Shown here in pieces: positions 271 to 18,259 of a stretch of 33,122 nucleotides of DNA. The position numbers were made by a program, and so were the translations under genes. The DNA is from Bacteroidota bacterium. Its GTDB lineage: Bacteria; Bacteroidota; Bacteroidia; Bacteroidales; F082. Every line of letters starts with the position of its first letter. Position 1 is the stretch's first letter. The stretch spans positions 1 through 33,122 of the forward strand of contig QIKE01000057.1 in the NCBI GenBank assembly GCA_003232915.1. Direction: 5' to 3'. The notes below the pieces were generated by a model, which saw nothing but the letters and a program-made list of their open reading frames with translations, made no database searches and was not told the origin of the DNA.

Positions 271-714
271 TTATAAAAAAACTCTAAAGTTTTGTAAGGG
301 CTTTAATATATATTTTTTCCACACGATGCAATCGTGCGGTAGCGGGGGTATTTTCCGAAGGCTCTTATTTGTACATAAAAGCAGGCTCACCGGGTCGCCC
401 AAAGTATGAGGATTTACAATCCTCTCCAATGCTTCTGCCATACCGGGCTGACTCTCCTTTTGGGATTTCCTTCCACCACCAGCCTTTCGTATTCTTTTGC
501 CTTTATCTGCTTCAGAGGACTTTATACCGGATTCTAATTCTTTTATCCCCTTATTTATTCTTGCACGGCTAACACCGGCAAGTTTGGCCACTTTGACTTT
601 GTCTCCACGCTCCATACTTTTAGCTTCACTTGCCAGAAATAACCGGGCCGATTTTTCATCTAAATGCGGTAAGAGCATTTGATATTTTTCTTGTAATTGA
701 GTATCTGTTGACAT
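271..714 (-). pseudogene. Truncated ISAzo13-family transposase remnant
   Basis: The reading frame encodes 147 residues. About the first 120 match what I know of the N-terminus of ISAzo13-type transposases: KYQMLLPHLDEKSARLFLAS near the start, a helix-turn-helix region around residues 37-60 (KLAGVSRARINKGIKEL), a basic GKRIRKAGGGRKS segment, and NPHTLGDPVSLLLCTNKSLR. Full-length members are over 400 residues, so the DDE catalytic part is missing. Similarity stops near position 345; the last ~25 residues read through unrelated sequence containing a CACGAT-GCA-ATCGTG hairpin (322-336). It is a dead fragment. The family assignment is from memory of the motif pattern. Confidence 0.75.
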
Positions 715-2058: not shown

Positions 2059-2484
2059 TTGAAAATAACTAAAGATTTGACTGATAACCGAAACATAAAC
2101 ACTCAAGGCGAAATATTTGGAAAAGCCGAAAGACTACATAGCCGCAAACTTATCGAACGTTTGTTTAAGGAAGGGGATTTTTTTTTTAAATACCCTTTTA
2201 AGGTATTTTATTTTGAAACAGAAAAAGAAAAAATTGCACCGGTTGGGATACTTATCAGCGTATCTAAAAAAAATTTTAAAAAAGCTGTTGACAGGAACAA
2301 GATAAAAAGATTAATCCGTGAATCGTATCGCAAAAACAAATCAATATTATACGAATCGGATCATTTAAAAAAAGATAAAAGTCTGTTAATCGGATTGATA
2401 TACACAGCAAAAACTATTCTGCCTTTCAAGGTTTTAGAAAAGAAAATAATTCTAATTTTACGACAATTTTTTAAAGAGAAATGA
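2059..2484 (+). CDS. rnpA: Ribonuclease P protein component
   Basis: A small basic protein (141 residues) that binds RNase P RNA and assists 5' maturation of tRNAs. Hallmarks are the entry motif [18 protein letters not shown] and the family signature [19 protein letters not shown], whose RNR-type basic helix contacts the RNA. There is no in-frame ATG, so translation probably starts at TTG 2059. The residues before KAERL (~22) are longer than usual for the family. A run of ten T residues (2178-2187) encodes part of GDFFFKYPF and is a natural slippage spot, although the frame is intact here. The gene overlaps yidD by 4 bp (ATGA), indicating translational coupling. Confidence 0.95.
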
Positions 2485-2702
2485 GCAGGTTGATCGGCAA
2501 GTTTTTCATATTACTTATTCGGGTGTATCAATACACGCTTTCGCCATTTTTAGGGCGTTCTTGCCGCTATATTCCAACATGTTCGGTTTATAGTGTAGAA
2601 GCCTTAAAAAAACATGGTCCTTTCAAAGGTGGATGGCTGGCATTGAAGCGGGTGATATCGTGCAATCCTTGGGGAGGTAGTGGCTATGATCCTGTTCCTT
2701 AA
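2481..2702 (+). CDS. yidD: Membrane protein insertion efficiency factor YidD
   Basis: A 73-residue protein with the complete family pattern: an amphipathic N-terminal helix ([18 protein letters not shown]), [20 protein letters not shown] with its conserved cysteines, and the [20 protein letters not shown] tail. YidD sits at the inner membrane and assists YidC-dependent insertion of membrane proteins. The rnpA-yidD pair is a widely conserved arrangement. Its start codon overlaps the end of rnpA. The S41 peptidase follows 22 bp downstream and may be co-transcribed. Confidence 0.95.
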
Positions 2703-2724
2703 TTAATTTTAAAATAATATTCTT

Positions 2725-4416
2725 ATGATAATGATAAAAAAAGTTTGGATAGTTTTTGCTTTTGTGCTGATAGCCGCAGGCCTGCGGGCTCAGGAAGAAA
2801 ATAATTTTGAAATTGCAAAGAACATAGAGATATATTCCAATGTTTTGCGACAACTCAACATAAACTATGTAGAAGACATTAAACCTGGCAAACTTACTCA
2901 GACTGCTATTAATGCCATGCTGCAAAGTCTTGATCCGTATACGATTTACGTACCCGAATCGCGTCTCGAAGATTTTGAATTGATGACCAAAGGAGAATAT
3001 GGTGGCATAGGTTCGATGATTCAAAAACAGGGTTATTATGTAGTGATTACAGAACCTTACGAAGGCTTTCCCGCACAGAAAGCTGGATTGAGAGCAGGAG
3101 ATAAAATTATTGCTATTGATGGCGATTCGGCACGGGGAAAAAGTTCTGCGGATGTTAGTAAAAAGCTGAAAGGCACACCCAAATCGGTGGTGAAATTAAG
3201 AATCAGGCATTTCGGAGCTGATAAGGATACGATTATTGATATCACCCGCGAAAAAATTAAAATTCCCAACATCCCATATTATGGTGTAACGGACAACGAT
3301 ATAGGCTATATCATATTAAGCCAGTTTAATCCTAATGCTGCTCTTAACGTGAAACAAGCTTTTCTTAACTTAAAAAACAAGTATCATATAAAAGGGTTAA
3401 TATTCGACTTGCGAGGAAATGGGGGTGGGCTGCTCAAAGAAGCTGTGGACATAGTAAATCTTTGGATTCCTAAAGGACAGTTGGTCGTTACTACGAAGGG
3501 AAAATTAAAACGGAATTCCACTGTCAGCCGAACCCTCAACGAACCTGTTGACTTAAAAATGCCGCTTACAGTGCTTGTTAATGGTAACACAGCCTCTGCA
3601 TCTGAAATTGTATCAGGTTCGCTGCAAGATTTGGATAGGGCGGTCATTATCGGCCGTCGTACATTTGGCAAAGGCTTGGTTCAAAATATTGTATCGCTTC
3701 CATACAATTCAAAAATCAAAATCACTATAGCCAAATATTACATTCCGAGTGGCAGATGCATACAAGCTATTGACTATTTCAACAAAGACAAAAACGGCAA
3801 TCCCGACCACGTTCCCGATTCATTAATCCGCGCTTTTAAAACCAAAGACGGACGGACGGTTTACGATGGTAAAGGTATCAAACCCGATATTGTGGTTAAA
3901 GAAAGAAAATATAGTCAGGTAACTACCGACTTGTATGCCAAAAATTATATTTTCAACTTCGCCAACGAGTTTTATTTGCGACACCGGAGCATTGCACCTC
4001 CCGAAAGTTTTGTTATTAGCGACTCGACTTTCAACGCATTCGAAAACTATGTTGCCAAAAAAGGTTTCAATTATAATACCGAAACAGAAAGCCTTTTGAA
4101 GCAACTTGATAAAAGTGCACAACGTGAAAGATATCTCTCAGCCATCAAAGTACAGCTCGACACACTACAAAAAACCATTGAACAGGAAAAGAAAAACGAT
4201 ATTGAGAAGTATAAAAACGAGATTAAGAACTTACTAAAAATGGAAATCATTGGTAGATATTATTATCAAAAAGGAAAAATCAGAGCTTCGCTTGGCGATG
4301 ATTTAGATTTAAGAGAAGCTGAGAAAGTGCTCAACAGCAAAAAATTATATTCTTCCATCCTCAACGGTACTTACAAAACACCCAAATCAGAAAAAATAAT
4401 TATACGGAAAAAATAA
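2725..4416 (+). CDS. S41-family carboxyl-terminal processing peptidase (CtpA/Prc type)
   Basis: A 563-residue exported serine protease. It has a signal peptide (IVFAFVLIAAGLRAQ), an N-terminal helical region, a PDZ domain around residues 85-170 (GIGSMIQKQGYYVVITEP, KAGLRAGDKIIAIDGDSARG) and an S41 protease core. The catalytic pair is visible: Ser291 in NTASASEI and Lys316 in FGKGLVQ. They are 25 residues apart, as in Prc (430/455) and plant D1 processing protease (372/397). A helical C-terminal extension (~420-563) is rich in Lys and Glu. It probably trims or degrades periplasmic proteins from their C-termini. Two close ATGs (2725 and 2731) could both start it; the difference is two residues. 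It follows yidD by 22 bp. Confidence 0.93.
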   Translation: MIMIKKVWIVFAFVLIAAGLRAQEENNFEIAKNIEIYSNVLRQLNINYVEDIKPGKLTQTAINAMLQSLDPYTIYVPESRLEDFELMTKGEYGGIGSMIQKQGYYVVITEPYEGFPAQKAGLRAGDKIIAIDGDSARGKSSADVSKKLKGTPKSVVKLRIRHFGADKDTIIDITREKIKIPNIPYYGVTDNDIGYIILSQFNPNAALNVKQAFLNLKNKYHIKGLIFDLRGNGGGLLKEAVDIVNLWIPKGQLVVTTKGKLKRNSTVSRTLNEPVDLKMPLTVLVNGNTASASEIVSGSLQDLDRAVIIGRRTFGKGLVQNIVSLPYNSKIKITIAKYYIPSGRCIQAIDYFNKDKNGNPDHVPDSLIRAFKTKDGRTVYDGKGIKPDIVVKERKYSQVTTDLYAKNYIFNFANEFYLRHRSIAPPESFVISDSTFNAFENYVAKKGFNYNTETESLLKQLDKSAQRERYLSAIKVQLDTLQKTIEQEKKNDIEKYKNEIKNLLKMEIIGRYYYQKGKIRASLGDDLDLREAEKVLNSKKLYSSILNGTYKTPKSEKIIIRKK

Positions 4417-6123: not shown

Positions 6124-6417
6124 TAGTAAAATACACAACAAAAGCAAAATGATATTAAATTTGCACCTCTTAAATCTGCACAAAGTTATTAACATAGATA
6201 ATCACGGAATTTTAAATATGTTGATTTTTTCCTTTTTTCATTCAAAAATTCTGTAATTATCATGTAATCAGTAGAATGTCTATTTATTTTTTATTCTTTT
6301 TGTAAAAACATATATATCATACATTTTACTATTTAGTTTTGATAGGTTTCTATTTACACAGCAATTGACAAGTAAATATTTTTACTTAGTCATATGATAT
6401 ATTTAATATTTACAGCA
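6124..6417. other. AT-rich gap before the IS1380 remnant
   Basis: No gene is recognisable. The sequence is extremely T-rich and probably includes the left end of the decayed IS1380 element, but I could not pair a left terminal inverted repeat with a right one. Confidence 0.5.
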
Positions 6418-7150
6418 ATGAAAGTACAAAATTTATTTAAAACGCTAAGTCCTTTTGCAGGAATTTCTTTTGATAACGAATTGTTCGACAGGTCTGGTTT
6501 AAACGAATATATTGATAACGAGTTAGCTATTAGTTCAAAAATTGTTGGATATCCATACAGGGAAATAATTAGAAACGTAACTAATGGTTTTTTTTCGTGT
6601 GGAGGACCATATTGAAGACATCAATACACATTTAAAAAATTTTCTTACGATAAAACAATAGTGTGCCAAATCCCGCTACAGTATTAAGAGAAATAACCGA
6701 CCGGCAAACCGATTGAAATCAATTATAATAAACATGAAGTGGCCTCTTCTCCGATTTTATGAATAATGACTTTGGCTAAAAGGATTTGCCGTTTCCTTTT
6801 ATGAGTCCGATCTAAAAAGGTTACAATTTGGTTTCAGCCACTTTTACCCCTCAATCCCCTAAAGGGGAAGTGGCTGAAGATCAGTACAGTAAATACCGAT
6901 TTTCATTATTTACCCTAGTTAACCTTTTTAGACTGGACTCTTTTATGAATCAAAACAATGCTTTTATAATAATTATGACAATGAAAAAAAATTACAACTA
7001 TGTCGTTAGAAAAGTCCCGGAAGTGTTTGCGGATGTTAAACTTACAACACGCCTAAAAAGATTTATGTTCAGATTCATATCTGTAGCAGGTAAATGGAAA
7101 TATCAAGACTGAAGATGGATGTTGAAGTTATACACAAACAAGCCATATTA
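6418..7150 (+). pseudogene. Decayed IS1380-family transposase with internal deletion and nested insertion
   Basis: Pieces of one transposase lie in several frames. The N-terminus starts at ATG 6418 (MKVQNLFKTLSPFAGISFDN, then GYPYREIIRNVTNGFFSCGG). After a small indel near 6604 the frame shifts to HIEDINTHLKNFL, and after another to NNSVPNPATVLREITDR (ends ~6710). About 260 residues are then missing, judged from family length. The C-terminal part resumes with MNNDFG (6759), a stop, and DLPFPF; it is interrupted at 6803-6940 by the short element described separately and continues as MNQNNAFIII, NYNYVVRKVPEVFADVKL and FRFISVAGKW before TGA at 7110-7112. Weak similarity continues to ~7150. IS1380 assignment rests on these motifs. 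Clearly non-functional. Confidence 0.85.
6803..6940. mobile_element. MITE-like element, copy 1 (138 bp), inside the IS1380 pseudogene
   Basis: The ends are imperfect inverted repeats: GAGTCCGATCTAAAAAGGTT (6803-6822) against AACCTTTTTAGACTGGACTC (6921-6940), with 18 of 20 positions pairing. It is flanked by a perfect direct repeat TTTTAT (6797-6802 and 6941-6946), the expected target duplication. The interior has no coding capacity and forms a hairpin with CAGCCACTT / AAGTGGCTG arms around CCCCTAAAGGGG. Removing the element and one TTTTAT rejoins the transposase reading DLPFPF to MNQNNAF exactly. A second copy lies at 18075-18226. Confidence 0.9.
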
Positions 7151-7190
7151 CAGGCCGATATGCTGAACTATCTCCAAATAAATTGAAAAA

Positions 7191-7822
7191 CAAAGGACTG
7201 TTATGCCCATTTTTTTTCAATTAATTAATTGTCAATTATCTGATGATATGATTGTTAACATGTTTTGTTCCAATTCTTAAAATGGATTTTTATTTAAAAA
7301 GCATACGAGTAAATCAATCAAAGTAATCTGAAAACGGCAAGTCGAGTATTTCAAGCTTTTTTTTGTTGATTGCATCTTCAAATAAAGTAAAAATGTATGG
7401 TTTTACTCTAAGGATTCCAGAAATAGCATAAATAGGGTAATTGATTTTCCCCCGCTAAATACGTAAACAAGTGTATATCTAAATATTAAAAAGCATGCAA
7501 TATTTTTGTAATTCGCTGATCATCAAATTTTTTAACAAAACCACGGATCATGATCGAATACTCAGGTTAGTATAATTTTGAATTTACTTGCGGATTTAAG
7601 GGTAAGTTTAAAATCCATTTATTACAAAAATTACTCTTTATTAATACTAAGGTAAAGGATTTTATTAGCAATTTTGATTATATATTACCGAATCGGTTTA
7701 CTTTTGCAATAGCATTTTGGTGTTTAATCAAATAGAGACGAAAGTAAGAAAACAAAGCCAATAATACGTTTTCGATTAAAACCGGGATAAAACAAAAAAG
7801 GACAGGTTTAAAACATAATAAT
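7191..7822. other. Gene-free, AT-rich stretch upstream of pdxA
   Basis: I found no convincing ORF on either strand, no RNA gene and no terminator. It probably contains the right end of the IS1380 remnant and the pdxA promoter region. Short similar words recur, such as AAAAAGCATACGAG and AAAAAGCATGCAA near 7298 and 7488, but nothing larger is supported. Confidence 0.4.
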
Positions 7823-17695: not shown

Positions 17696-18074
17696 TTGGG
17701 TTAAAAGAACAAGGGAGCAAGGGTGTGTAATGACGAGGGTCTGCCGCATGAAATGCGATGCTTACCCTATGAAATTTGAAGCACGAAAATATTTCTCAAT
17801 GGTAAGTAGGGTCTGCTGATTTTTTGAAAAACATAATTATAATATCGGTTATTCAAATAGATACTTCCAAACTAATCAATAGATCCGGGTTAAAAAATGC
17901 AGGGTTTTTTGTCCATTCGTTCAAAAACCTTTGTACTAATATTGAACAACTTTTTTCAAAATAAAAACATTTTAACAATACGTACCTGACGGCACTCAAC
18001 AAAAGGATACTTTTAATCTACTCCAACGAGACTAAAATGGCAGAATTAATATCTTAATAATCAAAATATTAAAT

Positions 18075-18226
18075 GAGTCCGGTGTAAAAAGGTTCTATAA
18101 TGATTTTAAGTAATTTTACCCCTAATTACCCTAAAGGGAAGTTGTTGAAAATAAGCTAATATTGTAGAGATGAGATAAGCTTTGATTTTAAATATTTACG
18201 CTTTTTTACCTTTTTAGACTGGACTC
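18075..18226. mobile_element. MITE-like element, copy 2 (152 bp)
   Basis: Same family as 6803-6940. The left end is GAGTCCGGTGTAAAAAGGTT (18075-18094); the right end is ACCTTTTTAGACTGGACTC (18208-18226). Seventeen of 20 end positions pair. A perfect 6-bp direct repeat TTAAAT flanks it (18069-18074 and 18227-18232). The interior shares TTTTACCCCT, CCCTAAAGGG and GAAGT with copy 1 but is otherwise diverged, and it is non-coding. Target duplications of 6 bp with different sequences in the two copies show independent insertions. Confidence 0.9.
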
Positions 18227-18259
18227 TTAAATAATAAAGAAACGATTTTACTGTGGCTT

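Follow-up and report, generated by a model that had tools for sequence, protein, structure and literature searches.

A 138-bp segment lying inside a decayed IS1380-type transposase gene of a Bacteroidota bacterium is, very probably, a MITE that an IS1182-related transposase mobilized in trans and that was inserted after the host gene was already in place. The segment has limits fixed by a duplicated target, belongs to a family of copies, is nested in another transposase gene and shares its type of ends with transposase-bearing elements of other genomes. It was found in a 33,122-nucleotide stretch of DNA (contig QIKE01000057.1), hereafter the window, whose relevant features are collected in Table 1.

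Table 1. Coordinates of the MITE copies and of the host gene in the window.
Feature	Positions	Strand	Evidence or remark
N-terminal remnant of IS1380-type transposase gene	6421..6606	+	tblastn: L192, E 8e-8; L189, E 2e-9
C-terminal remnant of IS1380-type gene, with internal stops	6753..7160	+	MITE after 6802, resumes at 6947
Left target duplication copy, TTTTAT	6797..6802		letters, 6-bp repeat scan, end pairing
MITE copy, 138 bp	6803..6940	+	own-genome homologues, end pairing, copy alignment
Left terminal inverted repeat, GAGTCCGATCTAAAAAGGTTA	6803..6823	+	19/21 identical to opposite end
Right terminal inverted repeat, inward reading GAGTCCAGTCTAAAAAGGTTAA	6919..6940	-	
Right target duplication copy, TTTTAT	6941..6946		letters, 6-bp repeat scan, end pairing
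Second MITE copy with target duplications	18069..18232	+	own-genome search, end pairing, window scan, copy alignment

A preliminary description of this DNA had proposed a MITE-like element of 138 bp with inverted ends of ~20 bp and TTTTAT on both sides, and this proved exact to the base, the end comparison giving 18/20 identical positions. When the window was scanned for direct repeats of 6 bp enclosing 60-200 bp whose inverted ends agree in at least 17/20, two places only were found, 6803-6940 and 18075-18226, and the same scan yielded none in 100 copies generated from the window by a first-order Markov model. The segment is short and has no transposase gene, a Pfam search of the frame crossing it giving no match; it has inverted ends and a 6/6 duplication, and its copies are dispersed, the features by which we class it as a MITE. 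It is 15 bp shorter than a 153-bp copy on contig C6, the gap lying in its second half. The second place in the window, absent from the preliminary description, is a 152-bp copy with the same ends between perfect TTAAAT duplications (18069-18074 and 18227-18232), and it belongs in the alignment to an interior subfamily other than that of the copy at 6803. Elsewhere in the window lies a frame (271-714, minus strand) the start of which we take to resemble an ISAzo13-type transposase.

The genome to which the window belongs (G000) is a 2.53-Mb draft in 162 contigs, 86.6% complete. The genome-wide search for ends and copies suggested in the preliminary description was run on this draft and gave 30 matches, one of them the window copy; four matches fall on the opposite end of a copy that had been counted before, and one copy is split in two. 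The end motif matched 51 times at ≤3 mismatches, against 10 times for the reversed motif. Pairing the ends in 29 loci produced 21 pairs, from which three alternative pairings that reuse an end were set aside, leaving 18 paired copies of 73-171 bp at the chosen threshold. The target duplication is 6/6 in 10 of these 18, the copy at 6803 among them, and 5/6 in five more, and the remaining three show a 7-bp repeat out of register (C108:7106, read by eye), 4/6 (C83) and 3/6 (C74). As a control, the flanks of different copies were compared: of 420 such pairings 13 agree at 6/6 and 68 at ≥5/6, an agreement by chance that is high because the flanks are A/T-rich. An alignment of 13 chosen sequences resolves two interior subfamilies. 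The MITE reading and the limits given to it are thus supported by many homologous copies with matched ends and duplications, and a family devoid of either did not appear in G000. Six contigs start or end inside the element (C11, C27, C43, C75, C85 and C121). On two of these, C75 and C121 (L009 and L013), the element stands at the contig end after near-identical 30-base flanks, and the copy there may lie in a duplicated or mobile stretch.

Beyond G000, the 138-bp element has matches in 8 of the 60 relatives searched, its own genome counted. Among 393 genomes of the order, which we take to be Bacteroidales, 20 contain the exact end motif, GAGTCCNNTCTAAAAAGG; a class-wide scan (completeness ≥99%) found it in 1/394, the own genome, and within the genus of G012 it was found in one of six genomes, G012 itself. 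The loci taken from motif-bearing genomes are a chosen subset, and pairing of ends in 15 genomes gave 84 pairs, alternatives included, with a 6/6 repeat in 39 and a 7/7 repeat in one, against agreement in 109 of 6972 pairings of different copies. The 39 perfect repeats reveal a target preference, with base counts of A35 T34 N N A29 T38 (one right end being counted twice) and with ATNNAT as the commonest form (22/39); neither of the window targets, TTTTAT and TTAAAT, is of this form. The interiors beyond the ends differ between genomes when compared by eye, except in G002, G012 and G025, where they are partly common. In G012, a repeated element with GAGTCCACTCTAAAAAG ends occupies the ends of ten contigs (L102 and L105). 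These ends match, and 57 bp of the left one are common, at 74%, with loci of G165 and G363; as a complete partner this element was rejected, since its middle is absent from the G012 sequence. A scan of IMG/VR returned five contigs in which every match falls within a long frame, and these were taken for chance.

As for the enzyme, transposase genes were found beside GAGTCC-type ends in G264 and G165, the frames adjoining the ends. The G264 element measures 1973 bp with both ends present, and the complete elements of other genomes measure 1792-1974 bp, with GAGTCC-like ends around the transposase gene. The first 447 residues of the G264 frame, read from an upstream codon (P0001), were used to search the 393 genomes, of which 13 gave a match at E ≤ 1e-25 and five a close one of at least 62% identity (G264, G256, G426, G363 and G165). 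Of the 19 places found, the ends were inspected at 17, and each of these has one or more GAGTCC-like ends (≤3 mismatches of 14) near the gene. Exact 6-7-bp repeats bound 6 of the 13 complete elements, namely those of G310 and G311, one G264 element and, out of four in G369, three that are copies of a single element and whose repeats were read by eye; the other seven are without an exact repeat, including the G264 and G256 elements whose ends are closest to those of the MITE. An element of G165 has, upstream of its transposase gene, an end that is identical over 22 bp to the right end of the MITE and agrees with the left end of the MITE at 19/22. This G165 copy has an interrupted gene, the G165 and G257 frames having one stop each. 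On informal reading, no likeness was noticed between the interior of the MITE and the partner.

The proteins of these elements have IS1182 as their best NCBIfam family in 9/9 cases, with E-values from 7e-23 to 1e-41. Because all nine, at 81-143 bits, fall below the family cut-off of 270 bits, we call the group IS1182-related and not a member of IS1182. Two of the partner proteins were compared with Pfam, and both matched DUF772 only. Residues D185, D380 and E501 are invariant in 11/11 aligned partner proteins and would constitute the catalytic triad.

The preliminary description had suggested looking for an autonomous IS with the same ends, and such elements do exist in other genomes of the order; none was found in the own genome, where P0001 detects no transposase of the group at E ≤ 1e-25 in the 86.6% complete draft. 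The transposase of G000 may have been lost, or it may be missing from the draft. Of the 20 genomes with the exact motif and the five with a close transposase, only two have both, and the sole motif match in G264 is the element's own end. The lack of a partner at home is one of two points in favor of a mover from another family, be it IS5, ISNCY or other, the second being that in G081 a GAGTCC end has an ISNCY-type transposase gene nearby. We nevertheless judge such a mover improbable: the G081 gene sits between different inverted repeats, inside the GAGTCC end, 30 of the 41 PF01609 places in 17 genomes were examined and none is bounded by a pair of ends at ≤4 mismatches, and IS1182-related elements do carry such ends. 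The ISNCY-type element (G081:C45) was accordingly rejected as partner for its other inverted repeats, and the 30 PF01609 places examined for want of bounding ends. Two further putative elements were set aside, one of 1.07 kb (G000:C39:29455-30524) whose longest frame is 79 aa, and one of 1.42 kb (G194:C24:19078-20498) with a long frame and, at one side, a 70-bp MITE-like pair. At locus L150, an ISNCY-type transposase gene lies at ~2389-4245 between inverted TATAGTGTCTGAAAG-type repeats, inside or beside a GAGTCC-ended element.

Much less probable still is a structured repeat, a hairpin or RNA element flanked by direct repeats through chance. The segment does fold strongly (z -7.1 as DNA) and has an inner hairpin with CCCCTAAAGGGG, but much of the fold is made up by the inverted ends themselves, and the target duplications, far above the different-copy control, refute this explanation. 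In an Rfam search of 6300-7400 no family attained its gathering score, and two sub-threshold matches outside the element were taken as chance.

To examine the nested position, the flanks 6201-6802 and 6947-7400 were joined and queried by tblastn with PF13701 (IS1380-type) frames from ten loci of relatives, the E-values being valid for this short target stretch only. Four of the ten proteins (L189, L190, L192 and L196) align unbroken across the join without the segment at ≤1e-3. The best, L196, is from the same genus and shows 57% over 89 columns with one gap (E 3e-32), followed by L190 (6e-18), by L192 (2e-10), likewise from that genus, and by L189 (3e-7). With the flanks unjoined, matches start only at 6939 and are all weaker (L196, 1e-24; L190, 1e-12; L192, 2e-6), and L189 has no match at the C-terminal part at 1e-2. 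The other six proteins, including the best PF13701 scorer, L187, have no match to the remnant; the PF13701 Pfam model does not detect the remnant itself, and a protein scan of genome contigs with the IS1380 N-terminal piece gave one poor match. Around the remnant no IS1380 element ends were found, the longest inverted match being 11 bp, and the ends of that element appear eroded or truncated.

The evidence for an insertion is that the flanks, once joined, align to IS1380-type transposases without a break. The join of 6802 to 6947 is as the preliminary description gave it; the frame that it preserves is no evidence by itself, because insert plus one repeat amount to 138 + 6 = 144 bp, a multiple of three. 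A stop stands within the first codons of the insert. The idea that excision restores the transposase reading was too strong, since a stop is left before the join, the central part of the gene is largely missing and what remains is a decayed remnant. The proposed order of events, with the IS1380-type gene first and the element later, is upheld by the four foreign proteins that span the site without the segment. That this IS1380 lineage ordinarily contains the segment, as its location inside the gene and its frame-keeping length might suggest, is refuted by these same four relatives, none of which carries it, and by its copies in many other places, and we give this reading next to no credence.

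A DDE transposase that recognizes certain ends could excise a short element that has nothing but those ends and insert it at another site. A MITE is a non-coding DNA transposon whose two ends are bound and cut by a transposase encoded at another place. Here the IS1380-type transposase gene was present before the MITE; a transposase of the IS1182-related group would then have bound the GAGTCC..TCTAAAAAGG ends, the element would have been inserted at TTTTAT inside the gene, and gap repair of a 6-base stagger would have produced the 6-bp duplication. More tentatively, and as a conjecture we consider possible without favoring it, the GAGTCC-ended elements could be an undescribed IS group, close to the models for IS1182 and ISNCY/IS5, which differs from the published palindrome-targeting members of IS1182 in that it duplicates a symmetric ATNNAT-like target, and which has repeatedly yielded MITEs with unrelated interiors in several families of the order.

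For a MITE family present in several families of one order, these results define the ends exactly, indicate which targets are preferred and point to a plausible transposase. They would aid annotation and account for breaks between contigs of draft assemblies, such as those of six contigs of G000, and they leave the general understanding of MITEs unchanged. Neither the family nor its partner group was found in print among open-licence papers, and a word search of a prokaryotic MITE review did not return IS1182. We consider the family to be new, and of a known kind, because an IS1182-type MITE (MITEPye1) is already in print and pairs of MITEs and ISs are known from Porphyromonas gingivalis.

MITEPye1 of Paracoccus yeei is non-coding, has ends of 18 bp that resemble the ends of IS1182-family elements and is thought to be moved in trans by these elements (PMC11578231). 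It resembles the family described here as a non-coding MITE tied to IS1182-type ends, and differs in its 4-bp direct repeats and its one to three copies per chromosome, as opposed to 6 bp and at least 18 paired copies here, as well as in its bacterium (PMC11578231). In P. gingivalis, BrickBuilt, MITE239, MITE464 and MITE700 have ends matching full-size ISs of the same species; their partners are of the IS5 family with 4-base duplications at the sites described, whereas ours are IS1182-related with 6 bp, and BrickBuilt has ends of GAGACC or GAGCCC.. and carries tandem repeats (PMC4596501). The partner transposases, which match the IS1182 model best, recall the IS1272/IS1182 family, in which IS1272 takes the place of a stem-loop and palindromes are reported as the target of some IS1182 members; in contrast, 6 of the 13 elements here show 6-7-bp direct repeats (PMC5678879). 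Finally, a survey covering elements of archaea and bacteria states that MITEs often resemble their partner at the borders alone, as the MITE described here appears to do.
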